Assembly: GCF_002150735.1 (NCBI RefSeq)
Contig: NZ_MUKA01000093.1
Location: forward strand, 1 to 64,000
Source: Streptomyces africanus
GTDB lineage: Bacteria; Actinomycetota; Actinomycetes; Streptomycetales; Streptomycetaceae
Direction: 5' to 3'
Length of the DNA stretch: 64,000 bases
Every line of letters starts with the position of its first letter. Within the stretch, counting starts at the first letter, position 1. The notes beneath the pieces are model-generated. The model had not been told where the DNA came from, made no database searches, and saw only the letters and a list, made by a program, of their open reading frames with translations. A program made the translations under genes and the position numbers. Positions 38,523 to 53,606 of the stretch are shown here, in pieces.

Positions 38523-38678
38523 TCAGGCGGGGGCGGGGGCTGAGCCGCCGTCGCGCAGGGAACTCGCCGCACTGCAGACGCGCACGAGATCGATGTGGCG
38601 GCGGGACGTCAGCAGGGGCAGTGGCCGGACGGCGACACGCACGGCGTCACCGCCGAGGTCCAGCGCGACACATCCCAT
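38523..38678 (-). CDS. Cysteine-type leader peptide before the GST-like gene
   Basis: A 51-codon reading frame from ATG 38678 whose second half contains LTSRRHIDLVRVCSAA. This is the consensus of the short actinobacterial leader peptides that precede sulfur-metabolism genes and are thought to work by cysteine-dependent attenuation. The upstream part (MGCVALDLGGDAVRVAVRPLPL) also resembles the longer family members. It ends 94 bases before the GST-like gene start. A shorter start cannot be excluded. Confidence 0.75.
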   Translation of the reverse strand: MGCVALDLGGDAVRVAVRPLPLLTSRRHIDLVRVCSAASSLRDGGSAPAPA

Positions 38679-39047: not shown

Positions 39048-39859
39048 TGCTGCTCAACCATGCGCGGGTGGAGCCCGAGCTGGGCTCACCGGCGCGCGGC
39101 GGGCTGCCCGCGACGGTGGCCCGGCGCACGGCGACCGGCTGGACCCTCACCGGCCGCAAGCGGTTCGCCACCGGCGTCGAGGGGCTCGACTGGCTGCTGG
39201 TGTGGGCCACCACGGACGAACCCATACCGCGGGTCGGCACGTTCGCCGTGCCCGGTGCCTCCCCCGGCATCGAGATCACCCACCGCTGGGACCACCTGGG
39301 TCTGCGGGCCAGCGGGAGCCACGACATCGCACTGCACGAGGTCGAGATCCCCGCCGGGAACGTGGTCGACATCGCCGCACACGGTCCGGGCGCCGAGCAG
39401 GACAACCGGGCAGCCGCTGCCCTCCATCTCCCGCTCGCGGCTCTCTACCTGGGCGTGGCCCGCGCGGCCCAGCGGTACTTCCACCGTTTCGCCCACGATC
39501 GGATCCCCGCCAACCTCGGCCACCCGGTCGCCCGCACGGAACGCTTCCGGCGGGCCGCCGGCGAGATCGCCCTGCGGCTGGACTCGGCCGAGCAGTTGGT
39601 GTTCGGCGGCGCCGAACGCGTGGACGCCGCCGACCGAACGTACGCCCCTGAACTGGCCCTGGGCGCCCGTATCCTGGCCGACCGGCACGCCGTCGAGGCG
39701 GTCGGGCTGGCGATACGGCTGCTGGGCAATCCGGGGCTGAGCCGTGACAACCCGCTGGAGCGCCACTTCCGCGACATCCAGTGCGCCCCGGTCCACGCCC
39801 CGCAGGAGGACGTCGCGCTGCTCGCCGTCGGCAGCCGTGCGCTGGAGGGCACCGGATGA
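39047..39859 (+). pseudogene. Acyl-CoA dehydrogenase, 5'-truncated
   Basis: About 270 residues of an acyl-CoA dehydrogenase. It begins abruptly at LLNHARVEPELGSPARGGLPAT (start of the middle beta domain) and continues through RKRFATGVEGLDWLLVWATTDE to the C-terminal helical domain (YFHRFAHDRIP, LGNPGLSRDNPLERHFRDIQCAPVHAPQED). The N-terminal 100 or so residues are absent, and upstream the frame reads only antisense of the LysR fragment. The stop overlaps the GlcD-like start as ATGA. Without the N-terminal helical domain, activity is unlikely. Confidence 0.8.
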
Positions 39860-41241
39860 CCGTCACCCAGTCCCGCACCGCCGAGGCCCTGCTGACCGCC
39901 CTGAGCCGTGACCTGCCGGGGGACGCCCTCCGCACCGCCCCCGAGGCCACCGCCCCGTACGCCGCCGACCGTTCCGGCAGCCGCCCGGACGGCGAGCCCC
40001 TGGCCGTCGTGCGCGCCGCGAACGCCGAGCAGGTGCGGACGACACTGCGGCATGCGCACGCGCTGCGGGTGCCGGTGGTGCCGCGCGGGGCCGGGACCGG
40101 ACTGTCCGGTGGTGCGAACGCCGGCACGGGCACGGTCGTTCTGGACCTGTCGCGGATGAACCGGATCCTCGACCTGGACCCGCACGACCAGATCGCCGTC
40201 GTCGAACCGGGCGTCATCACCGCCGAACTGGATCGCGCGGCGCGCGAGTTCGGGCTGCGCTACGCCCCCGACCCGGCGAGCGCGGCGATCTCCACGGTGG
40301 GCGGCAACATCGCCACCAACGCGGGCGGGCTGCGGTGCGCCAAGTACGGGGTGACCCGGGACGCGGTGCTGGGCCTCGACGTGGTCCTCGCGGACGGCAC
40401 GCCGATACGGACCGGCCGGCGCACCGTCAAGGGGGTCACCGGCTACGACCTGACGGCCCTGCTCACCGGCTCCGAGGGCACCCTGGGCGTGATCACCGCG
40501 GCCACGCTGCGACTGCGTCCGGTGCCGGAGACGACCGCCACCGTCGCGGCGTACTTCGACACCTTCGCCGAGGGAGCCGAGGCCGTGTCGGCGCTGACCG
40601 CCGCCCGGCTGGAGCCTTCCATGGCGGAGTTGCTGGACGGTCCGGTGCTCGGCGCCGTGGACGACGCTCAGGGCACGGACCTGCGCTCCCGTGGCGGTGC
40701 GCTGCTGCTTGTGCAGTGCGACGGACAGGCGGCCGCGACGGAGGCGGAGCGGGCGGTACGGCTGCTGCGCGGGCGCGCGGCATCGGTCGAGACCACCGAC
40801 GACCCGGCGGAGGCGGACCGGCTGCTCACGGCCCGCAGACTCGCCCTGCCCGCCCTGGAGCGGCTGGGGCGGGTGCTGATCGAGGACATCGCCGTGCCCA
40901 GGTCTCAACTGGCCGCCGCGGTACGGGAGATCACGGTCGCCGCCGAGCGTCATGACGTACGGATCTTCACCTTGGCCCATGCCGCGGACGGCAACCTCCA
41001 CCCCATTCTCGTCCTCGACCCCGACACGCCCGGCATCCCTGACGCTGCCTGGCGGGCGGCGGGCGACGTCTTCACCGCGGCACTGCGCCTGGGCGGCACC
41101 CTCACCGGGGAGCACGGCGTGGGCACCCTCAAGCGGCGGTGGCTCGCGGACGAACTCGGCCCGGAGCAGCACGCGTTGCAGCACCGCATCAAGGCGGCCT
41201 TCGACCCGCACCACATCCTCAACCCGGGCAAGGCCCTCTGA
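39856..41241 (+). CDS. FAD-linked oxidase, GlcD (glycolate/D-lactate oxidase) type
   Basis: A 461-residue flavoprotein with the FAD-binding type 4 (PCMH) domain: VVPRGAGTGLSGGANAGTGTVVLDLSRMNRI and GGNIATNAGGLRCAKYGVTRDAVLGLDVVLADG. The C-terminal oxidase domain ends with TGEHGVGTLKRRWL and AFDPHHILNPGKAL. It should oxidise a 2-hydroxy acid such as glycolate, D-lactate or a longer analogue. Start ATG 39856 overlaps the truncated acyl-CoA dehydrogenase, so its promoter may have been lost or replaced. It is convergent with the sulfur operon with only 9 bases between stops. Confidence 0.87.
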   Translation: MTVTQSRTAEALLTALSRDLPGDALRTAPEATAPYAADRSGSRPDGEPLAVVRAANAEQVRTTLRHAHALRVPVVPRGAGTGLSGGANAGTGTVVLDLSRMNRILDLDPHDQIAVVEPGVITAELDRAAREFGLRYAPDPASAAISTVGGNIATNAGGLRCAKYGVTRDAVLGLDVVLADGTPIRTGRRTVKGVTGYDLTALLTGSEGTLGVITAATLRLRPVPETTATVAAYFDTFAEGAEAVSALTAARLEPSMAELLDGPVLGAVDDAQGTDLRSRGGALLLVQCDGQAAATEAERAVRLLRGRAASVETTDDPAEADRLLTARRLALPALERLGRVLIEDIAVPRSQLAAAVREITVAAERHDVRIFTLAHAADGNLHPILVLDPDTPGIPDAAWRAAGDVFTAALRLGGTLTGEHGVGTLKRRWLADELGPEQHALQHRIKAAFDPHHILNPGKAL

Positions 41242-41250
41242 GGAGGAAGG

Positions 41251-42663
41251 CTAGGGACGTGCCCGTGCTCCGGCTGATTCCCGCTCCCGCACGGCGAGTT
41301 CGCGAAGGCGCGCGGCCGGGTGGTCGTCCCGGACCCGAGGGCCGCCGCCCGGACCCTGCAGGCGCTCGCGGAGCGTGGAACCGGCCGGCGGGTCCGGGAC
41401 CCTGCCGCGGGCGCGCAGCTCCGGGACGACCAGGTCGACGAAGTCGGTGAAGGTGCCGGGGGTCACGGCGTAGGCGAGGTTGAAGCCGTCGACGTCGGCC
41501 TCCTCGACCCAGCGTTCCAGTTCGTCCGCGACCGTTGCCGGGGAGCCGGCCACCACCGGTCCGATGCCGCCGATGCCCAGGTAGCGGGCGATCTGGTCGG
41601 GGGTCCAGCGGCGGGTCGGGTCGGCGGTGGAGAAGATCGCGAGCGCCGAGCGGACGGCGTCGGTGTCGATGTACTCCAGCGGCTGGTCCGGCGTGAGTGC
41701 GGACAGGTCGAGGCCGCTCCAGCCGCCGTAGAGGGCGAGGGCGCCCTCGTAGGAGGCGTGGGAGAGGAGGTCGGCGTGCTTGGCGCGGGCCTCCTCGTCG
41801 GTGGGGGCGGTGATGGCGGTGAACAGGATGAAGATCTTGACGCTGTAGGGGTCGCGGCCCTCGGCGGCGGCTTTGGCCCGGATGTCGTCGACGACGCGGC
41901 GGGTGGCCTGCGGGCTGACGGCGTTGATGAAGACCCCCTCACCGTGCCGGGCGGCGAAGGACCGGCCGCGCGGCGAGGCGCCGGCCTGGAAGATGACCGG
42001 GGTGCGCTGCGGGGACGGCTCGGACAGGAACACGCCCGGGACGGTGAAGTGACGGCCCTTGTGGGCGATGTCGCGGATGCGGCCGGGGTCGGTGTAGACG
42101 CCGCGCTCACGGTCGCGGACGACCGCGTCGTCGTCCCACGAGTACTCCCACAGCTTGTAGCAGACCTCCAGGAACTCCTCGGCGACCTCGTAGCGGTCGT
42201 CGTGGGCGACCTGTTCGCCGAGTCCCAGGTTGCGGGCGGCGCTCTCCAGGTAGGAGGTGACGACGTTCCAGGCGATCCGGCCCTTGGTGAGGTGGTCGAG
42301 GGTGGTGAGGGTGCGGGCGAGCTTGTACGGCTGCTCGTAGGTGAGGGACACCGTGACGCCGAAGCCGAGGCGCTCGGTCACCGCGGCCATCGCGGACACG
42401 GCGGGCAGCGGGTCGGACAGCGGGATCTGGGCGCCCTGGCGGACGGCGGCGTCCCGCGAGCCCTGGTAGACGTCGTAGGCGCCGAGTACGTCGGCGATGA
42501 AGAGGGAGTCGAACCCGCCGCGCTCCAGCAGCCGCGCCAGGTCGGTCCAGTAGGCGAGGTCGGTGTAGCGGTGCGCCTGGTCGTCGGGGTGTCGCCACAG
42601 GCCTGGCGACTGGTGGCCGACGCAGGCCATGTCGAAGGCGTTGAGGTGGATACGGCGGGTCAC
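41251..42663 (-). CDS. FMNH2-dependent monooxygenase, NtaA/SnaA/DszA family
   Basis: A 470-residue bacterial luciferase-like protein of the nitrilotriacetate monooxygenase group. N-terminal landmarks are MACVGHQSPGLWRHPDDQA and the flavin-contact region SLTYEQPYKLARTLTTLDHLTKGRIAWNVVTSYLESAARNLG. Further on are VIFQAGASPRGRSFAARHGEGVFI and GSPATVADELERWVEEADVDGFNL. The GTG start overlaps the permease stop as GTGA. It is the last gene of the sulfur operon. DszA-type enzymes cleave C-S bonds in sulfones, so a sulfone or related organosulfur substrate fits, but the substrate is not fixed by sequence. Confidence 0.85.
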   Translation of the reverse strand: MTRRIHLNAFDMACVGHQSPGLWRHPDDQAHRYTDLAYWTDLARLLERGGFDSLFIADVLGAYDVYQGSRDAAVRQGAQIPLSDPLPAVSAMAAVTERLGFGVTVSLTYEQPYKLARTLTTLDHLTKGRIAWNVVTSYLESAARNLGLGEQVAHDDRYEVAEEFLEVCYKLWEYSWDDDAVVRDRERGVYTDPGRIRDIAHKGRHFTVPGVFLSEPSPQRTPVIFQAGASPRGRSFAARHGEGVFINAVSPQATRRVVDDIRAKAAAEGRDPYSVKIFILFTAITAPTDEEARAKHADLLSHASYEGALALYGGWSGLDLSALTPDQPLEYIDTDAVRSALAIFSTADPTRRWTPDQIARYLGIGGIGPVVAGSPATVADELERWVEEADVDGFNLAYAVTPGTFTDFVDLVVPELRARGRVPDPPAGSTLRERLQGPGGGPRVRDDHPAARLRELAVRERESAGARARP

Positions 42664-43541
42664 TTGAGGGCTCCGGAGGACAGGCCGGCGACGAGCCGGC
42701 GTTGGGCGGCCACGGCCAGGACGTAGACGGGCGCGACGCCGATGAGGGACACCACCGCCTGCTGGCCGAACTCGACGTTCTTGTCGCCCTGGAAGAGGGA
42801 GAGCAGCACCGGCAGGGTCTGCGCGGTGCTGTCCTGGGCGAAGCTCAGGGCGAAGAGGAACTCGTTGTAACTGAGGAAGAAGCAGATCAGCGCGGCGGCC
42901 GCGACGCCCGGCGAGATCAGCGGCAGCACGACGCGGCGCAGACTCGCCCAGGTGCCGAGCCCGTCGAGCCAGGCGGCTTCCTCGATCTCCTTCGGCACCT
43001 GGCGCACGAAACCGTCCAGGAGCCAGATCGCCACGGGCACGTTGGCCAGCCCGTCGACGAGGGCCAGCCCGGCGACGGTGTTGTTCAGCTCCAGGTTCCG
43101 CAGCAGATAGAACAGCGGCAGGACCGCGACGACGGGCGGCGCGCAGTAGCTGGACAGCACCAGGGTCGCGAGCCTGGCTCCGCGGCGTCCGGCCCGGGCG
43201 GTGAAGTACGCGCCGGGGACGGCGACGAGCAGCGTCAGCACCACGGAACCAGCCGCGACCGCCCAGGAGTTGGCGATGTAGTGGCCGAGGTCGACGGCCC
43301 GGAACGCGTCGGGCCAGTTCCGCCAGAACAAGCGGGAGGGCAGCAGTCCGCCGTTGAGGACGTCGTCGCGGGAGCGGACGGACAGTGAGGCGACGTACAG
43401 CACCGGAACGGCGGCGAGGAGGGCGATGACCGCGAGCAGTGCGGTGAGGCCGGTGGTACGGCGGCGGGCGGCGGGTCGGGCCGGGGACCTGACCGCGGTT
43501 TCGTGGGCGACGGTTTCTCCGGTGGCTTCCAGCGTGGTCAT
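42660..43541 (-). CDS. ABC importer permease 2 (MalG-type)
   Basis: A 293-residue permease with about six hydrophobic segments and the EAA loop EEAAWLDGLGTWASLRRVVLPLISPG. It belongs to the carbohydrate-uptake-1 permease group, not to the SsuC/TauC sulfonate group. Both ends overlap neighbours by 4 bases (ATGA upstream, GTGA downstream), so the importer is embedded in the organosulfur operon. No ATPase gene is present here; a shared MsiK-type ATPase encoded elsewhere is the usual solution in Streptomyces. Confidence 0.88.
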   Translation of the reverse strand: MTTLEATGETVAHETAVRSPARPAARRRTTGLTALLAVIALLAAVPVLYVASLSVRSRDDVLNGGLLPSRLFWRNWPDAFRAVDLGHYIANSWAVAAGSVVLTLLVAVPGAYFTARAGRRGARLATLVLSSYCAPPVVAVLPLFYLLRNLELNNTVAGLALVDGLANVPVAIWLLDGFVRQVPKEIEEAAWLDGLGTWASLRRVVLPLISPGVAAAALICFFLSYNEFLFALSFAQDSTAQTLPVLLSLFQGDKNVEFGQQAVVSLIGVAPVYVLAVAAQRRLVAGLSSGALK

Positions 43542-44416
43542 ACGGCCACCTCCTCGTGCCGCTTCCGGCGCACCGCCACCAGGCTCGTGACCAGGCCGAT
43601 GAGCAGGGAGAACAGCACGGTGGCAGCGGCCGCGCCGCCGACGTCGAACTCCTGGAGGGCGGTGCGCTGGATGTCGTAGGTGCTGGTGGTGGTCGAGAAG
43701 CCGGGGCCGCCGGCCGTCACGACGTAGACGATGTCGAACACCTTGAAGCCGATCACCAGCTTCAGCAGCACGACCGACAGCAGCGTCGGTTCGATGTACG
43801 GCAGGACGACCGAGCGGACGGTGCGCCAGCGGCCGGCGCCGTCGAGGGCGGCGGCCTCGCGCAGGTCGTCCGGCACGCCGAGCAGGGCCGCGTACACGAG
43901 CAGCATCACGAACGGCGTCCACTGCCAGCTGTCGATCACGACGAGGGTCACGAACGCCCCGGTGGCGCTGCCGAGCGGGTTCACGCCGGGCAGGCCCAGG
44001 GCATGCAGCACGCCGCCCAGGGCCCCGCCGACCGGGGCGAGCAGCAGTTTCCACGCCACGCCGACCATGACGGGCGGAGTGACCAGCGGCAGCAGCAGGA
44101 GGGTGCCGAGCAGGCCGGGGCGCCGGGCCCGGGCGCGCAGCAGGAGCGCGAGGGCGGTGCCCAGCACCAGCTGGACCGCGGCGGCGAGCACCGCGAAGAG
44201 CACCGACCGCCACAGCGAGCCGGTGAACGACTGGCTCTCCAGCGCGGTACGGAAGTTGTCGAACCCGGTCCAGCGTTGCAGCGGCCGGGCGAGGGTGGAG
44301 TCGGTGAACGCCAGGCCGATGACGTAGACGAGCGGGTAGGCGGCGAACACCGCGAGGAAGGCCACCGGCGGCACGGCGAGCGCGCCGGGGACGCGCACGG
44401 CGGACCTGGCCGTCAT
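43538..44416 (-). CDS. ABC importer permease 1 (MalF-type)
   Basis: A 292-residue permease with six hydrophobic segments and the EAA loop LREAAALDGAGRWRTVRSVVLPYIEP. The N terminus (VPPVAFLAVFAAYPLVYVIGLAFTDSTL) is typical of sugar-type MalF permeases. It is coupled by 4-base overlaps to the binding-protein gene and to the second permease. It forms the membrane channel with permease 2. Confidence 0.88.
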   Translation of the reverse strand: MTARSAVRVPGALAVPPVAFLAVFAAYPLVYVIGLAFTDSTLARPLQRWTGFDNFRTALESQSFTGSLWRSVLFAVLAAAVQLVLGTALALLLRARARRPGLLGTLLLLPLVTPPVMVGVAWKLLLAPVGGALGGVLHALGLPGVNPLGSATGAFVTLVVIDSWQWTPFVMLLVYAALLGVPDDLREAAALDGAGRWRTVRSVVLPYIEPTLLSVVLLKLVIGFKVFDIVYVVTAGGPGFSTTTSTYDIQRTALQEFDVGGAAAATVLFSLLIGLVTSLVAVRRKRHEEVAV

Positions 44417-45765
44417 CCGGACGCTCCCTTGAGTTCCTTGGCCCAGGCCCGCTGCGTGTTGGCCAGGGCGGTCTTCGCGCTCTGCTTGCCCTGCAGGCCC
44501 AGCGCGAGTTCGTCCACGAGGGTCTGCAGCAGCTCCGGGGCCTTCGGGACGGTCGGCCAGGGCAGGGGGTCGCCCGCGAGACCGGTGCGGACGACCTCGT
44601 AGGAGCCGGGCGAGTTCTTGCGGAACGCCGCGGAGTTGAGCGTGCTGGTGCGGACGGGGTCGGCGCCCGCGTCGGGCTGGGCCAGCACGAGGAGGTTCTG
44701 CCGCGCGGCGGTGGCCCACTTGACGAAGGCGGCGGCTGCCTCCTTCTGCTTCGACGCCGTGGACACCGCGAGCCCGAAGCCCGCGTCCAGCGAGGTGCGC
44801 GGCTCGGTGTTGTCGCCGCCGACGGGGAGCGTGGTGACGGCCCACTTGTCGACGACCTTGGACTGCTTGGGGTCCTGGGCGCGCTTGGCGAAGTCGGTCC
44901 AGAAGTCGAGCATGGCGCCCTTGCCGTCGAGGAAGGCGGGCAGCGCCTGGTCGAAGCCGATCTGCAGCGGGGTGGGCAGGGCGTGCGGTGCGGCGTCGAA
45001 CAGCACCTGGGCGGCGGCGATCGCCTCCGGGGTGTCGAGCGTGGGCGCGTCCGACGCGTCGAGGAACGAACCTCCGTATCCGGCGAGGCGGTTGGCGAAG
45101 TCGCAACCGAGGATGACCGGGACCTGCTGGGCCTCGATGATGGTGCCGTAGTACCTGCCCCGGGCATCCTTGGTGATCTTCGCGGCGATGTCGTTGTACT
45201 CGTCCCAGGTCCTGGGCGCCTCCACCTTGTGCCGTTCGAAGATCTCGGTGTTGTAGAAGAGGATGTGGGTGTCTCCGTCGTAGGGCAGCCCCCAGCGCTT
45301 GCCGTCGTACCGGGTGTACGTGTCGTACAGGGACGGCAGGAAGTCGCTCTCCTCGATGTCCTTGTGCGCCTTGATGTACGCGGTCAGGTCCTCGATGACG
45401 CCGCCCTCGGCGAGGGTGCCGACGGCCGCGTACCAGTACATGAAGACGTCGAACTGGCCCGCCCCCGACTGCACGTCGAGCACGGCCTTGGCCGTGAGCT
45501 TGTCGTACGGCACCGGCGTCACCTTGAGCTTGGCGCCGGTGGCCTCCTCGAAGGGCCTTCTCAGGTACTCGAAGGACAGGGCGTTGGGCTGGTTGGCGAG
45601 GATCTTGAGGGTGACGCCGTCCAGATCCGGCTTGGCCGTCGGGTCGAGGGCGGCGGAGGCGGAGCCGCCGCACGCGGTGAGGAGGGGGCCGGCGGCGGTG
45701 AGGGCGGCGGCGCCGGCGGAGGCGCGCAGGAGCGTTCTGCGGGACAGCGGGGACGACGGGGACAT
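44413..45765 (-). CDS. ABC importer substrate-binding lipoprotein (family 1, sugar-type)
   Basis: A 450-residue binding protein. The N terminus combines a twin-arginine signal (SRRTLLRASAGAAALTAAG) with a lipobox ending LLTAC, so it is probably a Tat-exported lipoprotein. The mature part is of the extracellular solute-binding family 1 (VTLKILANQPNALSFEYLRRPFEEATGAKLKV, DVFMYWYAAVGTLAEGGVIEDLTAYI). The family usually binds sugars. Here it is coupled to organosulfur monooxygenases, so it may bind a sulfonate, sulfone or sulfated compound. That is inference. Confidence 0.85.
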   Translation of the reverse strand: MSPSSPLSRRTLLRASAGAAALTAAGPLLTACGGSASAALDPTAKPDLDGVTLKILANQPNALSFEYLRRPFEEATGAKLKVTPVPYDKLTAKAVLDVQSGAGQFDVFMYWYAAVGTLAEGGVIEDLTAYIKAHKDIEESDFLPSLYDTYTRYDGKRWGLPYDGDTHILFYNTEIFERHKVEAPRTWDEYNDIAAKITKDARGRYYGTIIEAQQVPVILGCDFANRLAGYGGSFLDASDAPTLDTPEAIAAAQVLFDAAPHALPTPLQIGFDQALPAFLDGKGAMLDFWTDFAKRAQDPKQSKVVDKWAVTTLPVGGDNTEPRTSLDAGFGLAVSTASKQKEAAAAFVKWATAARQNLLVLAQPDAGADPVRTSTLNSAAFRKNSPGSYEVVRTGLAGDPLPWPTVPKAPELLQTLVDELALGLQGKQSAKTALANTQRAWAKELKGASG

Positions 45766-45785
45766 GGGGTGGTTCTCCTGGCTTG

Positions 45786-46979
45786 TTACGTGTAGAGGGT
45801 GAACGGCGGGTGGGCGCCGTTGAGGAAGTGATCGCCGACCTCGCGGAGCTTGTAGGCGACCGGGTCGTGCAGGGTGTGGGTGCGTACGTTGCGCCAGAAC
45901 CGGTCGAAGCCGTACGCGGAGGCGGTGGACCGGGCGCCGGTGGCCTCGAGGACGCGGGCGGTGATGTCGAGGGCGGCCCGGGTGGAGGCGACTTTCGCGG
46001 TGGCGACGGTGACGGCGATCTCGCCGCGCTCGTCGGCGGTGAGGTCCGGGCCGCGGTCGAGGCCGCGCTGGACCGCTTCGGCGGCGTGGTCGGCGAGGAC
46101 CCGCACCGAGCGGGCGGAGACGGCGAGTTCGCCGTAGGTGGCGAGCGTGTACGGATCCTCGGTGGCGGCCTCGACGCCCGACAGCAGCCAGGGACGGGTG
46201 GCGGTCCTGGTGTACTCGGCCGCGGCGGCGAGCGCGCCCTCGGCGATGCCCAGGTAGAAGTGGACGAAGACCAGCTGGATCGCGGGCGTGACCAGCGTGG
46301 CGAACGGGGACAGCGCCTCCTCGTCCTGGGACAGGGAGCCGAGGATGTCGTCCGCCGCCACCGGCACGGCGTGGAACTCCACACTGCCGCTCGCCGACAG
46401 CCGCTGTCCGAAGTTGTCCCAGTCGTCGTTGCGGACGACTCCGGGGTGGGCCGGGTCGACGAAGACGACGACGGGTTCGCCGGTGTCGGCTCGGGCGGCG
46501 CCGACGACGAGCCGGTCGGCCACGCGGGCGCCGGTGGCGAAGGACTTGCGTCCGTCGAGCCGGAAGCCGGCGCCGTCCGGGGTCAGGGTGATGTCGGGGT
46601 CGCGCGGGTTGAAGGCCCCGCCCCACAGCCATGCGCCGTCGGCGGCGGCGCGCTCCAGGCGCTCGACGGTGGCGGGCCGGCCGAAGAAGCGGGGGTTCCA
46701 GGACAACAGGTAGTGGTAGCCGAGGAGCTGGCCGATGGAGCCGTCACCGGCGGCGATCTCGCGGATGACGGCGTAGGCGGTGCGCCAGTCCGCTCCCCCG
46801 CCGCCGCGCTCGGCCGGCACGAGGAGGGTGAGCAGACCGGCCGCGCGCAGCCGCTCGATCTCGTCGAAGGGCGGCTTGTTGGCCTTGTCGCGTGCGGGGG
46901 CGTCCTGGGCGAGGTCGGCGGCGACCGCGCGGGCGGTGGCGATCCAGTCGGCGTGGGGTCGGGGGGCTGTGCCGGTCAT
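45786..46979 (-). CDS. Acyl-CoA dehydrogenase-like flavin monooxygenase, DszC/SfnC type (third paralogue)
   Basis: A 397-residue member of the acyl-CoA dehydrogenase superfamily group that acts as FMNH2-dependent monooxygenase (DszC, SfnC). The signature near the C terminus is RFWRNVRTHTLHDPVAYKLREVGDHFLNG. The middle domain has GRKSFATGARVADRLVVGAARAD. It is the most diverged of three such genes in this operon (compare 46993 and 49364). No catalytic carboxylate typical of true acyl-CoA dehydrogenases is evident. It lies 14 bases after the next paralogue and just before the importer genes. Confidence 0.82.
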   Translation of the reverse strand: MTGTAPRPHADWIATARAVAADLAQDAPARDKANKPPFDEIERLRAAGLLTLLVPAERGGGGADWRTAYAVIREIAAGDGSIGQLLGYHYLLSWNPRFFGRPATVERLERAAADGAWLWGGAFNPRDPDITLTPDGAGFRLDGRKSFATGARVADRLVVGAARADTGEPVVVFVDPAHPGVVRNDDWDNFGQRLSASGSVEFHAVPVAADDILGSLSQDEEALSPFATLVTPAIQLVFVHFYLGIAEGALAAAAEYTRTATRPWLLSGVEAATEDPYTLATYGELAVSARSVRVLADHAAEAVQRGLDRGPDLTADERGEIAVTVATAKVASTRAALDITARVLEATGARSTASAYGFDRFWRNVRTHTLHDPVAYKLREVGDHFLNGAHPPFTLYT

Positions 46980-46992
46980 GGTGGTGCCGTCC

Positions 46993-48177
46993 TCAGACGA
47001 TTCCGTTGGCGGGCGGGTGGACGCCGTTGAGGGCGTGGTTGCCGAGGTGCTGGATCTTCCATCGGCGCGGGTCGTGGAGGGTGTGGGTGCGGGCGTTGCG
47101 CCAGTGCCGGTCCAGGTTTCGGCCGCCGGTCACGGACCGGGTCCCGATGAGCGCGAAGACGTCGTTCGCCACGGTCAGCGAGGCCGTGTCCGCCTGCGCG
47201 CGGGCGGCGGTGACGGCGAGGGACGCCCCGGCGGCGAGCTCCGCGTCGGCGGGTGCCCGGCGGGCGGCGTCGATGGCGGCGCCCGCCCGGTCGAGGAGGG
47301 CTTCGGCGGCACGGACGAGGAGGGACAGTTCCCCGAACTGCTGGATCACCAGCGGTTCCTCACTCGCCCGGTCGGCGCCCGACTCGCCCCAGGGCCGGGC
47401 GAGCGTACGGATCAGCTCGCCGCCCTCCTCCAGCGCCGCGCGGGCGATGCCGGTGTCGACGGCCGCGTGGATGAACTGGCCGAAGGCGCCGAAGACTTCG
47501 GGCCGTTCGAAGGTGAGGTGGTGGAGCACGACCCGGTCGGCGGGGACGTGCACGTCCTCGAACTTCACGGTGCCGCTGGCCGTGCCGCGCTGGCCGATGC
47601 CGTCCCAGTCGTCGACGACGGTGACGCCGGGGGCGTCGTGCGGGACGAACGCGGCGGTGAGACTGTCGTCCGGGGCGAGCGCGAAGACCGGGATCCAGTG
47701 GGCGAACAGGGCACCGGTGGAGTAGTTCTTGGTGCCGGTCAGGGTGTACGAGCCGTCGGGACGGGGCTCCAGGCGGGTGGCGAACTCCAGCGCGTGTCCG
47801 GTGCCCTTCTCCGCCAGGGCGTTGCCGAACCTGCGCCCGGCCAGCACCTCGGCGTAGAAGAAGTCGCGCTGCTGCGCCGTCCCGTTCTCCTTCAGCACCT
47901 CCACGAAGAAGAAGTGGTTCTGCGGGATCTGGCCGATGCTGGAGTCGGCCGCCGACAGCAGCCGGACGACCTCCCCGAGGGTGCGGGCGCCGACTTCGGC
48001 GCCGCCGTGGGAGCGGGGCACGGTGATGCCGAGCAGCCCGGAGGCCGACAGTTCGTCGAGTTCGGCCCGCGGCAGGATGCGCTCGGCGTCGCGCAGGGCG
48101 GCCTCGCGGGAGAACTTGTCGGCCAGCTCGGCGGCGACGGCGACGGCCTCGGCGTCGTCGGCGATCACGTGGGTCAT
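46993..48177 (-). CDS. SfnC-like flavin monooxygenase (second paralogue)
   Basis: A 394-residue acyl-CoA dehydrogenase-fold monooxygenase. Landmarks are ITVPRSHGGAEVGARTLGEVVRLLSAADSSIGQIPQNHF, the middle-domain GTKNYSTGALFAHWIPVFA with DDWDGIGQRGTASGTVKF, and the C-terminal HWRNARTHTLHDPRRWKIQHLGNHALNG. It is clearly paralogous to the gene at 49364-50560 over the whole length. The start overlaps the ssuD stop as ATGA. SfnC-type enzymes work with a flavin reductase in dimethyl sulfone/sulfonate use. Confidence 0.83.
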   Translation of the reverse strand: MTHVIADDAEAVAVAAELADKFSREAALRDAERILPRAELDELSASGLLGITVPRSHGGAEVGARTLGEVVRLLSAADSSIGQIPQNHFFFVEVLKENGTAQQRDFFYAEVLAGRRFGNALAEKGTGHALEFATRLEPRPDGSYTLTGTKNYSTGALFAHWIPVFALAPDDSLTAAFVPHDAPGVTVVDDWDGIGQRGTASGTVKFEDVHVPADRVVLHHLTFERPEVFGAFGQFIHAAVDTGIARAALEEGGELIRTLARPWGESGADRASEEPLVIQQFGELSLLVRAAEALLDRAGAAIDAARRAPADAELAAGASLAVTAARAQADTASLTVANDVFALIGTRSVTGGRNLDRHWRNARTHTLHDPRRWKIQHLGNHALNGVHPPANGIV

Positions 48178-49337
48178 CGTGGGCTCCCGGCGCCCGCGAA
48201 GGGGATCTGTGCCGAGGGGGCGGCGGCCTGGTTGCCGGAGGGGTGCGTCCACAGGCCCTGTGCCTGAAGCCTCGGCAGCACGCCCTCGCCGAACCAGTAC
48301 GCCTCCTCCAGGTGGGGGTAGCCGGAGAAGATGAACTCGTCGATGCCGAGGGCGTGGTACTCCTTGATCCGCTCGGCGACCTCGTCGTGGCTGCCGACCA
48401 GGGCGGTGCCCGCGCCGCCGCGCACCAGGCCGATGCCGGCCCACAGATTGGGGTGGATCTCCAGACGCTCGCGGCTGCCGCCGCCGTGCAGGGCGAGCAT
48501 CCGCCGCTGGCCCTCGGACTCGCTGCGGGCGAGGCCGGCCTGCACCGACGCCACGGTCTCCGGGTCGAAGCCGTCCAGCAGCCGGTTCGCCTCGGCCCAG
48601 GCCTGCTCGGCGGTGTCGCGGGTGATGACGTGCAGCCGGATGCCGAAGCGGATGCTCCGGCCCTCCTTCTCGGCCAGCGCCCGGATCCACGCGATCTTCT
48701 CGGCGACCTTCGCGGGCGGCTCGCCCCAGGTGAGATAGACGTCGACGTGCTTGGCGGCTACGTCGCCCGCGATCGGCGAGGAGCCGCCGAAGTACACCTC
48801 CGGAAGCGGGTCGGGCACCCGGGCCAGCCTGGCGCCCTCGACCTGGAGGTGCTCGCCGACCAGGTCGACGCTCTTGCCCTGCCACAGCTCCCGTACGACT
48901 TCGAGGAACTCGCCGGTTCGGCGGTAGCGGGCGTCCTTGTCGAGGAAGTCGCCGTACGCCCGCTGCTCGTGGCTCTCGCCGCCCGTGACGACGTTGAGCA
49001 GGAGCCGTCCGCCGGTCTGCCGCTGGAAGGTGGACGCCATCTGCGCGGCGAGCGTCGGCGAGACGAAGCCGGGCCGGAAGGCGACGAGGAACTTCAGACG
49101 TTCGGTGTTCTGGCTGACCATGGCGGTGGTCAGCCAGGCGTCCTCGCACCAGGCGCCGGTGGGGGTGAGCGCGCCGACGAAGCCCAGGTCCTCGGCGGCA
49201 CGGGCGATCTGGCTCAGGTAGGCGACCGTCGGCGGCCGGTCGCGCCCGGACTCCGTGGCGGGGGTGCCGTGGCCGCCGCCGACGACATGGCGGCTGTCGC
49301 CGTTGGTGGGCAGGAACCAGTGAAAGGTGAGGGACAC
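48174..49337 (-). CDS. ssuD: FMNH2-dependent alkanesulfonate monooxygenase
   Basis: A 387-residue luciferase-like enzyme that cleaves alkanesulfonates to aldehyde and sulfite. The family N terminus (TFHWFLPTNGDSRHVVGGGHG), FRPGFVSPTLAAQMASTFQRQTGGRLLLNVVTGG, VYFGGSSPIAGDVAAKHVDVYLTWGEP and SGYPHLEEAYWFGEGVLP are all present. GTG 49337 follows a GGAG site. It needs FMNH2 from the SsuE-like reductase encoded two genes upstream. Methanesulfonate made by the SfnG step is a natural substrate candidate. Confidence 0.93.
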   Translation of the reverse strand: MSLTFHWFLPTNGDSRHVVGGGHGTPATESGRDRPPTVAYLSQIARAAEDLGFVGALTPTGAWCEDAWLTTAMVSQNTERLKFLVAFRPGFVSPTLAAQMASTFQRQTGGRLLLNVVTGGESHEQRAYGDFLDKDARYRRTGEFLEVVRELWQGKSVDLVGEHLQVEGARLARVPDPLPEVYFGGSSPIAGDVAAKHVDVYLTWGEPPAKVAEKIAWIRALAEKEGRSIRFGIRLHVITRDTAEQAWAEANRLLDGFDPETVASVQAGLARSESEGQRRMLALHGGGSRERLEIHPNLWAGIGLVRGGAGTALVGSHDEVAERIKEYHALGIDEFIFSGYPHLEEAYWFGEGVLPRLQAQGLWTHPSGNQAAAPSAQIPFAGAGSPR

Positions 49338-49363
49338 GTGGGGTCTCCGTTCGGGGTTGTCCG

Positions 49364-50560
49364 TTACAGCAGGCCGTGCCGGGGCGGCTGGGTGCCGTTC
49401 AGGAGGTAGCGGCCGATGTGCTGGACCTTCCAGCGGGCCGGGTCGTGCAGGGTGTGGGTGCGGGCGTCACGCCAGTGGCGGTGCAGGCCCAGGGAGTCGA
49501 GCGCCGAGCGGGTGCCGGAGACCTCGAAGAGGGCGCTGCCGACCTCCACGGCCGCCTCCGCCGCCGTCACCTTGGCCGCGGCCACCGCGATCGAAGCCGC
49601 GGCGGCCGAGTCGTCGGTCAGGTGGGCGTGGGCGGCGTCCACGGACCGCGCCGCGGTGGACAGCAGCGCGTCGGCGGCCCGTACCCGGATCGCCAGTTCG
49701 CCGAAGCGCTGGATCAGCAGCGGGTCCTCGGTGGCGCTCTCGTGTCCTTCGGCGACGCTCTCGAACCAGGGGCGGCTCTTGGTGCGCACAAACTCCACCG
49801 CCTCGGCCAGCGCGCCGGCGGCGATCCCGGCGTCGATGGCGGCGTGCAGCAACTGGGCCACAGCTCCGTGGAGTTGGGGTCCCCGGAAGGTGAGGTGGTG
49901 CGGCACGACCCGGTCGGCGGGCACGGGCACCGACTCCAGGCGGACGGTTCCGCTGGCGGTGGTGCGCTGTCCCATGCCGTCCCAGTCGTCCACGACCGTG
50001 AGGCCGGGTGCGTCGCGCGGTACGTACGCCACGTGCAGGTTGTCGTCGTCGGCGCGGGCGAGGACGGGGATCCAGTCGGCGAACAGGGCGCCGGTGGAGT
50101 AGTGCTTGACGCCGTCGAGGACGTACGACCCGTCCAGGCGCCGCGCGAGCCGGGTACGGATGTCCTGCACATGGCTGGTGCCCGCCTCGGACTGGGCGTT
50201 GCCGAACCGCTTGCCCGCCAGCACCTCGCCGAACAGGAACTCCTTCTGCTCCCGCGTCCCCTGCCGGCGCAGCACGCCCACGTACACGAAGTGGCTCTGC
50301 GGGATCTGGGCCAGGCTCGCGTCGGCCGAGGCCAGCAGCCGGAAGATCTCCGCGAGTGTCTCCGTACGGACGTCCGCGCCGCCGAACTCCGCGGGCACCG
50401 TCACGGCGAGCAGTCCGGAGGCGGACAGCCGCTCCAGCTCCGGACGCGGAAGCCTGCGCCGTGCGTCCCGCTCGGCGGCGTCCTTGCGGAAGTCCGCGGC
50501 CAGTTCGGCGGCGACGGCAAGAGCCCCGGCGTCGTCGGCGATCACGGTCACGGCACTCAT
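49364..50560 (-). CDS. sfnC: SfnC-like flavin monooxygenase (first paralogue)
   Basis: A 398-residue acyl-CoA dehydrogenase-fold flavoprotein. It has VTVPAEFGGADVRTETLAEIFRLLASADASLAQIPQSHF, GVKHYSTGALFADWIPVLA, DDWDGMGQRTTASGTVRL and the C-terminal HWRDARTHTLHDPARWKVQHIGRYLLNG. It overlaps the ssuE gene by 4 bases. It is closely related to the 46993 gene product; the pair probably arose by tandem duplication around ssuD. Its likely task is oxidation of an organosulfur intermediate with FMNH2. Confidence 0.83.
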   Translation of the reverse strand: MSAVTVIADDAGALAVAAELAADFRKDAAERDARRRLPRPELERLSASGLLAVTVPAEFGGADVRTETLAEIFRLLASADASLAQIPQSHFVYVGVLRRQGTREQKEFLFGEVLAGKRFGNAQSEAGTSHVQDIRTRLARRLDGSYVLDGVKHYSTGALFADWIPVLARADDDNLHVAYVPRDAPGLTVVDDWDGMGQRTTASGTVRLESVPVPADRVVPHHLTFRGPQLHGAVAQLLHAAIDAGIAAGALAEAVEFVRTKSRPWFESVAEGHESATEDPLLIQRFGELAIRVRAADALLSTAARSVDAAHAHLTDDSAAAASIAVAAAKVTAAEAAVEVGSALFEVSGTRSALDSLGLHRHWRDARTHTLHDPARWKVQHIGRYLLNGTQPPRHGLL

Positions 50561-51114
50561 GCCGTGGCCGCCAGCAGTGCCGAGCGGCCATCGAGAGCGA
50601 GCGAGAACTGGTCGGTGACCTGGGCCAGGGGCTCGGCGGCGCCCGGTGCGACGGTCAGCGCGCCGTCGTCGCCCACGGTGATGTCCTTGTCGAGCGTGAA
50701 CCAGCCCGGGGTGATGTGGGCGGCGCCCAGGGAGCTCAGCACCGGGCGCAGGGCGTAGTCGATGGCCAGGACGTGGGCGGTGCTGCCGCCGGTGGCCAGT
50801 GGGAGGACGGTCTTGCCCGCCAGCGCGTACTGCGGGAGCAGGTCCAGCAGCGACTTCAGCAGGCCGGAGTAGGCGGCCTTGTAGACCGGGGTGCCGATCA
50901 CGACCCCGTCCGCCTGCTCGAACAGCGCGGTGGCCTCGACGATCGCCGGGTGGCCGAAGTCGGCGCGCAGCAGGGCCTCGGGCGGGAGAGTGCGGACGTC
51001 CAGAGGGATCACCTCGTGCCCCTGGGCCGTGAGCCGGTCGTCCAGGTGGCGCAGGAGACGGGCGGTGCGGGAGGTGGCGGACGGGCTTCCGGAGACGGAC
51101 AGGACGGTGGCCAT
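50557..51114 (-). CDS. ssuE: NADPH-dependent FMN reductase
   Basis: A 185-residue flavodoxin-fold reductase of the SsuE/MsuE group. The flavin phosphate loop is VSGSPSATSRTARLL. The family segment GVVIGTPVYKAAYSGLLKSLLDLLPQYALAGKTVLPLATGGS is complete. It should make the FMNH2 used by SfnG, SsuD, the SfnC-like proteins and the NtaA-like protein of this operon. It lies 57 bases after sfnG. Confidence 0.93.
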   Translation of the reverse strand: MATVLSVSGSPSATSRTARLLRHLDDRLTAQGHEVIPLDVRTLPPEALLRADFGHPAIVEATALFEQADGVVIGTPVYKAAYSGLLKSLLDLLPQYALAGKTVLPLATGGSTAHVLAIDYALRPVLSSLGAAHITPGWFTLDKDITVGDDGALTVAPGAAEPLAQVTDQFSLALDGRSALLAATA

Positions 51115-51171
51115 GAGGGGACCTTTCAGAAGTACCGGGTGGGGTGGGGAAGTTCGCCGTTTCGAGGGCGG

Positions 51172-52293
51172 TCAGGCGTGGGCGGTGACGGGCGCGGGCT
51201 CCTGTGCCTCCAGTTCGCGCACGAGGGGCAGGACCCGCTTGCCGAAGTACTCGACCTCCTCCAGGTAGTGCAGGAAGCCGAGGAGGAAGAGGTCCACGCC
51301 GAGCCGCTTGTAGGCGACGATCCGCTCGGCGATCTGCTCGGGGGTGCCGATCAGGCCCGTGCGGAAGCCGTCGTTGTACTGGACCAGGTCCTCGAAGCTG
51401 GAGCCCTGCCACATGCCCTTGCCGTCCGCGGTGGACGGACCGGCCTGCTGCACGGCGTCACGGAAGCCGTGCACGGCCGGTGTGTCGGCCTTGGCGACGA
51501 TCTCGCGGAGCGTCTCGCGGGCCTCGGCCTCGGTGTCGCGGGCGATCAGGAAGCCGTTGAGGCCGAACTTCGGCGGCGTGCGGCCCGCTTGGGCGGCGGA
51601 CGCGCGGACGTCGCCGATCTGCTCGGTGACGCCGTCGAAGTCCTTGCCGTTGCTGAAGTACCAGTCGGAGACGCGGCCCGCCATGGCACGGGCGGCGGTG
51701 GAGTTGCCGCCCTGGAAGATCTCCGGGTGCGGGCGCTCGGGGGTGTTGAGCGGCTTCGGCTTGAGGGAGAAGTCGCGCAACCGGTAGAAGTCACCGGCGA
51801 GTTCGGCGTAGTCCTCGGTCCAGATCTTCCGCAGGGCGCGGATGAACTCCTCGGAGCGCCGGTAGCGCTCGTCGTGCTCCAGCCAGGGCTCGCCGAGGGC
51901 GGTGAACTCGCCCTTGAACCAGCCGCTGACGACATTGACGGCGAAGCGGCCGTGCGACAGGTGGTCGGCGGTGGCGCCCAGCTTCGCGAGCACGCCCGGG
52001 TGCCACAGGCCGGGGTGGACGGCGGCGATGACCTTCAGCCGCTGGGTCGCGAGCAGCAGGGCGAGGCTGAAGCTGGTCGACTCGTGCTGGTACTCGGCGC
52101 CGTAGCTCGCCATGTAGCGGACCTGGCTGAGGGCGTAGTCAAAGCCGTTGTTCTCGGCGAGCACGGCCAGTTCGCGGTTGTAGTCGTAGCCCCAGTCGGT
52201 GCGCTGCTCGATGGTGCTGGTGACCAGGCCGCCGCTGACGTTCGGCACCCAGTAGGCGAAGCGGAGGGGGTCGGACACGGGCGGTACGGGCAT
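51172..52293 (-). CDS. sfnG: Dimethyl sulfone monooxygenase
   Basis: A 373-residue luciferase-like enzyme matching SfnG, which oxidises dimethyl sulfone to methanesulfinate with FMNH2. The characteristic blocks are FAYWVPNVSGGLVTSTIEQRTDWGYDYNRELA, YGAEYQHESTSFSLALLLATQRLKVIAA, RFAVNVVSGWFKGEFTALGEPWLEHDERYRRSEEFIRALRKIW and PHPEIFQGGNSTAARAMAGRVSDWYFSNG. ATG 52293 has a GGAG site. It heads the ten-gene operon, with a cysteine-type leader peptide upstream and a divergent LysR gene. Confidence 0.92.
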   Translation of the reverse strand: MPVPPVSDPLRFAYWVPNVSGGLVTSTIEQRTDWGYDYNRELAVLAENNGFDYALSQVRYMASYGAEYQHESTSFSLALLLATQRLKVIAAVHPGLWHPGVLAKLGATADHLSHGRFAVNVVSGWFKGEFTALGEPWLEHDERYRRSEEFIRALRKIWTEDYAELAGDFYRLRDFSLKPKPLNTPERPHPEIFQGGNSTAARAMAGRVSDWYFSNGKDFDGVTEQIGDVRASAAQAGRTPPKFGLNGFLIARDTEAEARETLREIVAKADTPAVHGFRDAVQQAGPSTADGKGMWQGSSFEDLVQYNDGFRTGLIGTPEQIAERIVAYKRLGVDLFLLGFLHYLEEVEYFGKRVLPLVRELEAQEPAPVTAHA

Positions 52294-52479: not shown

Positions 52480-52560
52480 TCAGGCGCGACAGCGACAGCA
52501 GGAGCTGGAGACACGCGCAAGGTCGACATGGCGTCGCCGCGTGAGATCCTGTCGCTTCAT
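52480..52560 (-). CDS. Cysteine-type leader peptide before the sulfur operon
   Basis: A 26-residue reading frame on the minus strand from ATG 52560. It contains LTRRRHVDLARV, the actinobacterial leader consensus, and ends with SSSCCRCRA. Three cysteine codons within four codons just before the stop are what a ribosome-stalling, cysteine-sensing attenuator needs. It stops 187 bases before sfnG. When cysteine is scarce, stalling at these codons would open the downstream operon; this is known logic applied by inference. Confidence 0.82.
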   Translation of the reverse strand: MKRQDLTRRRHVDLARVSSSCCRCRA

Positions 52561-52697
52561 GTCATCGATCCAACCAGCGGGGAGTCGGACCGGTCAAGAA
52601 AGCGCGGAAGTGATTCCACATGCTGAGAGTCGGTATTCACGAGGTTGTGACAGGGATTCCCTTGAACCCGGCGCCCGGCGGACGGCAGTCTCCTGGC

Positions 52698-53606
52698 GTG
52701 CGTATCGAACAGCTCGAATACATCGCCGCCGTCACACGGTTGGGATCACTGCGGCGCGCCGCCGAGGAACTGCACCTGTCCCAGCCCGCGCTCAGCGAGA
52801 CCATGCGCAATCTGGAGCGCGAGCTCGGCGTGGACCTGTTGGAGCGCAAGCGGTCCGGGGCGAAGATCAGCGACGAGGGCCGGGAACTGCTGCCGCACAT
52901 CATGAGCGTGCTGGACGCGGTCGACCGCCTGCGCGGTGCGGCCGGCGACCAGCACCGCATCAGCCGCATGGTCCGCCTCGGCACGGTCAACACGGCCACT
53001 GTCCCGCTGGTCATCCCGACGGTGCGGGAATTCCGGGCCTCGCACCCGGTCACCCAGGTCGAGCTGGTCGGCGCGCAGCAGTCCGAGATCCACCGCGGGC
53101 TGCTGGAGGGCGCGTTCGACCTGGGGCTGGTGAACTACCTCGGGGGCGATGACATGCCACCCGGCTTCGACACCACGGAACTCCTGCGCGGCCGGCCCGT
53201 GGTGTGCCTGCGCCCGGACAGTCCGCTGGCGGCCCTGGACGCGGTGGACGTGGACAGCCTCCTGGCCGAGCCGCTGGTCGTGATGCGGTCCGGCTATGTC
53301 ATGCACCGATTCGTGCACCGCCTGCTCGGCGGCAGGACACCGTCCTTCTCGTACTCGACCGACGGCGCGGAAATGGGCAAGCTGATGGTCGCCGAGGGCC
53401 TGGGGGCGACGGTGCTGCCGGACTTCAGCGTCGTCGGCGACCCTCTGGAGCGGCGGGGCGCACTCACCGTACGGCCGCTCGCCGGGGACGCGACCGAGGT
53501 GCTGCTGGTCCTGCAGCGCCGCCACTCCGGCTCCGTCCCCCGGGCCGTGCGCGATCTGCACGAGCTGTTCGTGCGCAACTCCCGTGCGTACGAGGCCTCT
53601 TCGTGA
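52698..53606 (+). CDS. LysR-family regulator, likely of the sulfur operon
   Basis: A 302-residue LysR protein. I start it at GTG 52698 (VRIEQLEYIAAVTRLGSLRRAAEELHLSQPALSETMRNLERELG), which gives the family N terminus; the frame is open 26 codons further upstream. A substrate-binding domain follows (TVPLVIPTVREFRASHPVTQVELV, LVAEGLGATVLPDF). It is divergent from sfnG and the leader peptide, the usual placement for a regulator of the adjoining operon. The ligand is unknown; a sulfur metabolite is likely. Confidence 0.85.
   Translation: MRIEQLEYIAAVTRLGSLRRAAEELHLSQPALSETMRNLERELGVDLLERKRSGAKISDEGRELLPHIMSVLDAVDRLRGAAGDQHRISRMVRLGTVNTATVPLVIPTVREFRASHPVTQVELVGAQQSEIHRGLLEGAFDLGLVNYLGGDDMPPGFDTTELLRGRPVVCLRPDSPLAALDAVDVDSLLAEPLVVMRSGYVMHRFVHRLLGGRTPSFSYSTDGAEMGKLMVAEGLGATVLPDFSVVGDPLERRGALTVRPLAGDATEVLLVLQRRHSGSVPRAVRDLHELFVRNSRAYEASS

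Follow-up and report, generated by a model that had tools for sequence, protein, structure and literature searches.

The window analysed here comprises the first 64,000 nucleotides of contig NZ_MUKA01000093.1 of Streptomyces africanus (assembly GCF_002150735.1). It contains ten genes on the minus strand at 41251-52293, in the order sfnG, ssuE, acd1, ssuD, acd2, acd3, the substrate-binding protein (SBP) gene, perm1, perm2 and dmoA. The positions proposed in the initial annotation were confirmed by translation, codon-position composition and inspection of ribosome-binding sites. The intergenic gaps are, in order, 57, -4, 26, -4, 13, 20, -4, -4 and -4 bases, and the four-base overlap at five of the nine junctions is the pattern of a translationally coupled operon. 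The features are as follows:

52480..52560, minus strand: cysteine-rich leader peptide, 26 amino acids, three cysteines (NCBIfam NF042934, 33.1 bits, cut-off 27)
51172..52293, minus strand: sfnG, dimethylsulfone monooxygenase (TIGR04021, 625 bits, cut-off 383)
50557..51114, minus strand: ssuE, FMN reductase (TIGR03567, 222 bits, cut-off 164)
49364..50560, minus strand: acd1, SfnB-family group D flavin monooxygenase (TIGR04022, 554 bits, cut-off 431)
48174..49337, minus strand: ssuD, probable alkanesulfonate/methanesulfonate monooxygenase (TIGR03565, 470 bits, below the cut-off of 518)
46993..48177, minus strand: acd2, SfnB-family group D flavin monooxygenase (TIGR04022, 530 bits, cut-off 431)
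45786..46979, minus strand: acd3, group D flavin monooxygenase of the DszC/MsuC clade (own branch, support 100/98)
44413..45765, minus strand: family-1 substrate-binding lipoprotein (SBP_bac_1, 124 bits; RR signal and LTAC lipobox by reading the sequence)
43538..44416, minus strand: importer permease 1, MalF-like, with EAA loop (PF00528, BPD_transp_1, 56 bits)
42660..43541, minus strand: importer permease 2, MalG-like, with EAA loop (PF00528, BPD_transp_1, 44 bits)
41251..42663, minus strand: dmoA, DmoA-type flavin monooxygenase (NtaA/DmoA family, 547 bits, cut-off 280)

The proposal that this operon serves sulfur scavenging is supported by its gene content, its cysteine (Cys) leader and proteins poor in Cys and methionine (Met). 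The reading preferred here, with a probability of about 0.72, is a sulfur-starvation operon that would combine enzymes like those leading from dimethyl sulfide (DMS) and dimethyl sulfone (DMSO2) to sulfite with a dedicated importer for an organosulfur compound.

Oxidising and C-S cleaving enzymes

The SfnG that a DMS/DMSO2 route calls for is present, well above its cut-off. The best solved relatives of SsuD (407, 393 and 390 bits) are all alkanesulfonate monooxygenases, while 7oh2 and 7olf, presumably sulfoquinovose-type enzymes, reach only 188 and 176 bits.

Three enzymes with the acyl-CoA dehydrogenase fold are encoded, as the initial annotation had it, but their identification as three SfnC/DszC paralogues did not hold. 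Two of them, acd1 and acd2, belong to the SfnB family, and acd3 is a separate member of the DszC/MsuC clade. It falls short of both models (SfnB, 290 of 431 bits; DszC, 341 of 850 bits) and shares 44.5% identity with DszC and 40.5% with MsuC. In a 21-row tree, acd3 lies within the DszC/MsuC/TdsC superclade (support 100/100), on a branch (100/98) that also holds its Actinomadura counterpart, a Rhizobium protein and a second gene of S. himastatinicus. Gln and Gly occupy the positions of His92 and Asn129 of DszC, residues of catalytic importance in that enzyme. The candidate identity MsuC was rejected on percent identity and separate branching, and DszC on score, residue changes and separate branching.

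The last gene was previously described as NtaA/DszA-like. It does belong to the NtaA/DmoA family, but its nearest relative is DmoA rather than DszA. Among solved structures, the full-length match to the dimethyl-sulfide monooxygenase 6ak1 ranks first (602 bits), followed by LadA (490) and DszA (272). Over the aligned segments, identity amounts to 57.6% with DmoA, 54.9% with LadA and 39.9% with DszA. PMC9259527 (consulted in part) names 20 residues for binding in DmoA, of which 18 are identical here; the changes are G231P and L367I. Q18 and Y138 are as in DmoA, where LadA has I18 and H138. The protein can be described as a DmoA-type flavin monooxygenase, with DMS as a candidate substrate. Accounts of the DmoA reaction disagree: it is drawn as converting DMS to dimethyl sulfoxide (DMSO) in PMC13352529 (in part) and listed among C-S bond cleaving enzymes in PMC10863075. 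None of the 4S-pathway enzymes DszA, DszB and DszC was recognised by score; identity to DszA is that given above, and no DszB candidate family occurs among the ten genes.

Signatures of sulfur starvation

The leader open reading frame (ORF) of 26 codons, MKRQDLTRRRHVDLARVSSSCCRCRA, lies 186 bases upstream of sfnG. It passes the NCBIfam 'putative leader peptide' model and resembles the Cys-rich families Ms5788A and Ms4527A, below both cut-offs. The S. himastatinicus counterpart scores 23.3 bits with NF042934, under the cut-off. Similar ORFs stand ahead of the operon in S. ipomoeae (locus L015, two Cys), S. himastatinicus (L017, three) and Actinomadura sp. (L019, three). The genome of the window itself has two more leader-like ORFs, one with a single Cys ahead of a second ssuE-ssuD pair (L046) and one with two Cys ahead of an NtaA-like gene (L045); L044, L045 and L046 denote its other sulfur-gene stretches. 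The second pair, at G000:C646:18000-30000, matches the pair of the operon at 82% and 86%. Cys-rich leader peptides of this type are known as cysteine-responsive attenuators, and by its family the leader is likely to be such an attenuator of the operon.

Divergent from the operon stands a regulatory gene:

52620..53606, plus strand: LysR-type regulator, start possibly at 52698 (counterpart in L017 at the same position, 78%)

The start at 52698 is suggested by the gene call in S. himastatinicus. Comparison of the sfnG-LysR intergenic regions revealed a conserved block, which was recognised as the leader peptide. A regulatory palindrome was looked for in these regions and rejected: the scan, for T-N11-A sites whose arms match, gave a single match in the window and one in L017, both within the LysR gene. 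At about 52560-52620, upstream of the leader, the window and S. himastatinicus share conserved bases, among them CTTGACCGG and CTGGTTGGATCG. These could be the promoter of a nearly leaderless transcript, and a sigma-70 scan found no promoter there.

The number of Cys and Met residues in proteins is an accepted gauge of sulfur sparing (PMC8557817, in part). With start Met excluded, the ten operon proteins contain 7 Cys and 13 Met in 3629 residues (0.55%), and SsuE, acd2 and acd3 contain none. The mean of 69 other proteins of the genome is 2.18% (one-sided Mann-Whitney p = 9e-5); these stem from a crude gene caller and include sulfur genes of L044-L046, so that the contrast is understated rather than inflated. 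Nine other sulfur-type genes of the genome (SsuABC-like, NtaA-like, TauD-like, the second SsuD and SsuE, and two on contig C487) lie at 0-1.03%, and the divergent LysR protein has an ordinary 2.75%. Given the Cys leader and the Cys/Met-poor proteins, it is unlikely that the operon fails to respond to sulfur limitation, the outcome named at the outset as speaking against its role.

An importer without a linked ATPase

The assignment of the importer to family 1 instead of SsuABC was upheld by the SBP_bac_1 match and the two BPD_transp_1 permeases. The operon also lacks an ATPase gene, as first noted, according to a PF00005 profile search and tblastn. On the window contig (C7), PF00005 matches were found only at 9959 and 62146 in a genome search in which 150 of 330 candidates were scored, and tblastn with five ATPase queries found no ATPase in 33401-56800. 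The search for a partner of the MsiK type, recommended in the initial annotation, did yield an unattached MsiK/UgpC-type gene elsewhere in the genome, at C316:45113-46201 (481 bits, cut-off 432), with no recognisable binding protein or permease in the surrounding 6.4 kb. One other ATPase passes the cut-off; it is encoded on C165, together with permeases and a binding protein that appear to be its own.

The EAA loop is the site at which the ATPase docks. In a pattern search it was found in both permeases of the window, of L019 and of one rhizobial locus, L078, and in permease 1 only of the other five rhizobial loci searched. The locus therefore has the layout of an MsiK-dependent CUT1 importer, namely a family-1 SBP, two EAA-loop permeases, no linked ATPase and an MsiK/UgpC-type gene in the genome. 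We infer that the importer is driven by an MsiK-type ATPase encoded elsewhere.

The importer shares the low Cys/Met content of the operon. Counted in eight of the 18 orthologue loci described below, Cys+Met of SBP and permeases amounts to 0.68-1.26%, compared with 2.24-3.58% in nine controls. Within the window genome, five complete control importers have 1.65-3.05% versus 0.78% for this one.

Recurrence in actinobacteria

A scan of the genome_contigs collection with the binding protein, working by exact peptide patterns and thus liable to miss relatives, matched 36 stretches, seven of which encode a relative. Five are orthologous loci with sulfur genes, from S. ipomoeae, S. violaceus (L016), S. 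himastatinicus, S. jeddahensis and Actinomadura sp.; the other two are a broken fragment and an unrelated protein (26%). The orthologue count does not include L020 and L023 (the same broken contig-end fragment), L021 (26%) and L022 (45%, a lone gene). An FMN-reductase-type gene lies 4 kb upstream of the L022 homologue. L016 contains runs of N and, like L018, is truncated at the 5' end. The five other actinobacterial records, two of them truncated in this way and one with a different gene order, share most of the gene set, so the set is no chance assembly. Among the four loci with a complete 5' end, acd1, acd2, acd3, ssuD, the importer and dmoA are present in all, and sfnG in the window and L017. 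Upstream of the operon in L015 (186-3851), where sfnG is missing, three luciferase-type monooxygenases are encoded: one of the NtaA/DmoA family, one CE1758-like below the cut-off and one of the MsnO8 family. A similar-looking luciferase-type set is found in the window genome on contig C487 (L045).

The module is rare and patchy. A survey of the genus Streptomyces matched four of 392 genomes at E <= 1e-50 (the window genome itself, one at 87%, one fragment and one at 45%), and a phylum survey matched one of 396, again the window genome.

Rhizobial orthologues of the importer

In one collection of 72,556 plasmid records, 48 carry an orthologue of the binding protein at 45-48% identity, all from Rhizobium, Sinorhizobium or Ensifer; among the matches listed (60 of 161 records, in even steps), the next relative has 31% identity. 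Twelve of the 48 (L069-L071 and L074-L082), the first three taken from the top of the list and the rest picked for species spread, were read in context with flanks of 10-11 kb. Eight family-1 importers of 26-31% identity, drawn from the weaker matches and lying on plasmids of rhizobia, Pantoea, Deinococcus and Paraburkholderia, served as controls. A single tblastn procedure was used for all, and sulfur monooxygenases of the SfnB, SfnG, SsuD and DmoA types were counted from 38% identity upwards.

Each of the 12 rhizobial loci has both permeases after the binding protein. Sulfur monooxygenases lie within about 11 kb in 9/12 rhizobial loci, 0/8 controls and 6/6 actinobacterial loci. A CUT1-type ATPase follows the permeases in 0/12, 7/8 (same strand) and 0/6, respectively. 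As related records are not independent, no p-value is attached to these linkage counts. Judging by annotation or position, the ATPases seen at rhizobial loci are parts of other importers, among them Liv, taurine/sulfonate and sulfate systems; in L077, the same strand continues with a tauABC set. Half of the 12 loci (L069, L074, L075, L076, L078 and L080) have a DmoA-type gene (52-55%) and two SfnB genes side by side in the 10 kb around the importer.

The importer is not a chance neighbour of the sulfur enzymes, since it is linked to sulfur monooxygenases in two phyla, in contrast to the controls. That an ordinary sugar importer has come to lie in the operon by accident is accordingly very improbable, even though the protein family is the sugar-type family 1 and sulfur monooxygenases are missing from the surroundings of L022 and of three rhizobial loci. 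Besides the linkage, its place inside the operon in six actinobacterial loci and its Cys/Met content relative to the controls contradict such an accident.

The stated source of 35 of the 48 plasmid records is Phaseolus, in a sampling biased to bean isolates. S-methylcysteine compounds are abundant in beans. In the part of its text consulted, a bean-rhizobia comparison from 2016 that includes CIAT652, CCGM7 and CFNEI73 makes no mention of the importer (PMC5011921).

Candidate ligands

The larger or sugar-like substrate suggested in the initial annotation was not demonstrated by sequence comparison. The solved relatives of the binding protein carry varied sugar and polyol labels, one of them sorbitol-binding, at 106 bits for the best, whereas SmoF, which binds sulfoquinovosyl-glycerol, reaches 34 bits. 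Structure prediction of the binding protein with five sequences was too poor for use (mean pLDDT 34.3, pTM 0.25). The identities SmoC and SmoF were rejected by the scores of SsuD (188/176 versus 407 bits) and of the binding protein.

Four annotated loci of Sinorhizobium/Ensifer (L070, L076, L077 and L079) have a gene for an aldo-keto reductase inserted between those of the binding protein and a permease. The L070 protein, the one tested, is a member of PF00248 and, among solved structures, comes closest to a putative oxidoreductase, general stress protein 69 and IolS; the L079 protein contains one Cys/Met in 342 residues. SquF, of the PF00248 family, reduces the product of SquD, an aldehyde from sulfoquinovose desulfonation (PMC9594981, in part). 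The aldo-keto reductase may thus hint at a substrate that yields an aldehyde. It is in keeping with an importer for a sugar- or polyol-like sulfonate or sulfate in a sulfo-ASMO-like pathway, the resulting aldehyde being used further, as are the importer family, the sorbitol-binding relative and the low Cys/Met content of the L079 reductase. This alternative is nevertheless unlikely: SsuD is nearest to alkanesulfonate monooxygenases and not to 7oh2 and 7olf (presumably the sulfoquinovose enzymes), the SmoF match is weak, and the window operon is without an aldo-keto reductase.

Proposed function

For the sulfur-starvation operon, the following course can be proposed; the reactions, the ATPase partner and the substrate are inferred, the reactions from protein families. 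When cysteine is short, ribosomes would stall on the Cys codons of the leader and transcription would run into the operon, as the leader family suggests, with the divergent LysR protein probably adding control. The family-1 SBP and two permeases, using a shared MsiK-type ATPase, would take up a polar organosulfur compound. SsuE would provide FMNH2. The SfnB pair and acd3 would oxidise sulfur from sulfide via sulfoxide to sulfone and perhaps from sulfinate to sulfonate, the sulfinate step possibly falling to acd3. SfnG and the DmoA-type enzyme would cut C-S bonds, and SsuD would free sulfite for cysteine synthesis.

DMS, DMSO and DMSO2 are small and cross membranes unaided. Because of this, and because the importer occurs without sfnG in L015 and L019, a larger or charged substrate is somewhat more likely than DMSO2. 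A more specific version is put forward tentatively: the operon would be a module devoted to importing and desulfurising a polar thioether, sulfone or sulfonate. Uptake would fall to a clade of family-1 importers that is specific for sulfur, relies on a shared ATPase and is linked in Actinomycetota and rhizobia, many of the latter from bean nodules, to SfnB pairs, a C-S cleaving enzyme of the DmoA type and SsuD. Its course would be 4S-like, from thioether via sulfoxide, sulfone, sulfinate and sulfonate to sulfite, ending in SsuD.

The operon might instead encode the plain Pseudomonas/Acinetobacter route for DMS, DMSO2 and methanesulfonate, with the family-1 importer replacing SsuABC for methanesulfonate or short alkanesulfonates. 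Methanesulfonate needs an importer, and the operon has no genes of the SsuABC type. Three group D enzymes of Acinetobacter baylyi take DMS via DMSO to DMSO2, SfnG/MsuD, MsuC and SsuD perform later steps, and one flavin reductase powers all (PMC13352529, in part); a candidate for most of these enzyme steps is found in the operon. This explanation is rather doubtful, as the genome already has an SsuABC-like set (L044; SsuA_fam 102 bits, below the cut-off of 163.5), the importer occurs in clusters without sfnG (L015, L019), and acd3 is not MsuC. In addition, five of the six DmoA-bearing rhizobial loci (L069, L074, L076, L078 and L080) have no sfnG in the examined stretch, with L069 and L076 cut where it could lie.

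Several observations weigh against the preferred reading of a sulfur-starvation operon with a dedicated importer. Concerning the enzymes, ssuD stays under its curated cut-off (470 versus 518 bits), and the replacement of His92 and Asn129 by Gln and Gly makes the reaction of acd3 uncertain. LadA is nearly as close to the last gene as DmoA, and the tree groups the window protein, DmoA, LadA and rhizobial proteins (100/100) without resolving their branching order. Of the group C enzymes tested in Acinetobacter, none oxidised DMS, and even the true MsuC is slow and dispensable there (both PMC13352529, in part). Concerning regulation, no clear anti-terminator was found, only a single terminator-like site upstream of the leader, with 0.3 expected by chance. 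Two control binding proteins of the window genome, L095 (2 Cys/Met in 411 residues) and L096 (2 in 407), are as Cys/Met-poor as the one in question (4 in 449), so that the poverty of the binding protein alone proves little. Of the six rhizobial loci searched for the EAA pattern, five lack it in permease 2; many control permeases lack it as well. With regard to linkage, the S. ipomoeae and Actinomadura clusters contain no sfnG, L071, L079 and L081 have no sulfur monooxygenase in the examined stretch, and about 10 kb on each side of L022 contain no matching permease or sulfur monooxygenase.

Neighbouring and related genes

Two genes converge on the operon:

39856..41241, plus strand: GlcD-type FAD-linked oxidase (glcD, 394 bits, below the cut-off of 568; Cys+Met 0.87%)
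39092..39859, plus strand: acyl-CoA-dehydrogenase-fold gene, start approximate, Cys/Met-poor

An N-terminal domain of the latter was not found at 39092..39859. The pair (39092-41241) contains 1 Cys/Met in 254 residues for the acyl-CoA-dehydrogenase-fold protein and 4 in 460 for the GlcD-type oxidase, and also adjoins the operon in S. violaceus (L016). The sulfur island probably reaches to about 39 kb and includes the GlcD-type oxidase.

A second leader-like ORF, with an HIDLVRV core and one Cys, is located at 38523-38642 on the minus strand, just upstream of a gene at 37557-38477 (minus strand). By eye this gene resembles a glutathionyl/mycothiol-type reductase, and it has no NCBIfam match; it may also be sulfur-regulated. 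Elsewhere in the genome, the family-1 binding protein of L096 is encoded at 1868-3094 of G000:C141:33500-38254, and its importer may be a second sulfur-regulated one.

Relation to known systems

Like the DMS/DMSO2 route of Acinetobacter baylyi and Pseudomonas (Dms1-3, SfnG/MsuD, MsuC, SsuD and MsuE; PMC13352529, in part), the operon has two-component flavin monooxygenases of groups C and D with a single flavin reductase, along with SfnG and an enzyme of the SsuD type. The comparison with Dms1-3 is by family, two SfnB-family enzymes scoring above the cut-off. The operon differs from the route in forming one ten-gene operon, in the added DmoA-type enzyme, in acd3 not being MsuC, in the family-1 importer in place of SsuABC and in the actinobacterial Cys leader. 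Relative to the Ssu operon, too, a family-1 SBP and permeases stand in place of SsuABC.

With the sulfo-ASMO (SMO) pathway of Agrobacterium and Novosphingobium (PMC9594981, in part), the operon shares SsuD-like C-S cleavage and, in the case of Agrobacterium, a binding-protein importer; unlike there, SsuD and binding protein are not of the sulfoquinovose type by score, and SfnB, DmoA-type and SfnG enzymes are added. The dszABC genes of the 4S pathway use the same two flavin monooxygenase folds for S-oxidation followed by C-S cleavage, but DszA, DszB and DszC are missing here by score or branch, and the pathway would end in SsuD instead of DszB. In the ssu/seu genes of Corynebacterium glutamicum, SsuD, a flavin reductase and DszA/DszC-like monooxygenases form one cluster, as here, a likeness by description. 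To our knowledge, no family-1 importer belongs to those genes.

The importer is laid out like the MsiK-dependent CUT1 importers of Streptomyces, CebE/MsiK and DasABC-MsiK (PMC4890002 and PMC6167110, both in part), which consist of an SBP and two permeases with no linked ATPase. It is distinguished from them by its sulfur linkage, its low Cys/Met content and its orthologues in rhizobia. The leader has the HVDLxRV core followed by Cys codons, upstream of an operon, of the actinobacterial Cys-rich leaders (NF042934; Ms5788A, Ms4527A), although it is below the cut-offs of the latter two and its cysteine response is predicted.

The initial annotation knew of no description of such a pathway. For much of the enzymology one now exists, as the route from DMS via DMSO, DMSO2, methanesulfinate and methanesulfonate to sulfite was described in A. 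baylyi in 2026 (PMC13352529, in part). No account of a sulfur-linked, ATPase-less family-1 importer of this clade was found in the open-licence literature in PMC. A binding-protein importer beside an SsuD-like enzyme is already known for sulfoquinovose (PMC9594981, in part). Each kind of enzyme is known; the new part is the sulfur-linked, ATPase-less family-1 importer common to two phyla, with no CUT1-type ATPase found after the permeases in the 18 loci examined (12 rhizobial and six actinobacterial).

Organosulfur importers are known mainly as SsuABC and TauABC types. The organic share of soil sulfur exceeds 95% (PMC4267179, in part). If the reading given here is true, the annotation 'sugar ABC transporter' can hide sulfur uptake in streptomycetes and rhizobia. 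The natural substrates of SfnB and DmoA-type enzymes are still uncertain, which makes the binding protein useful for finding them: a single protein with orthologues in culturable strains would offer a handle on the compound that feeds these enzymes.

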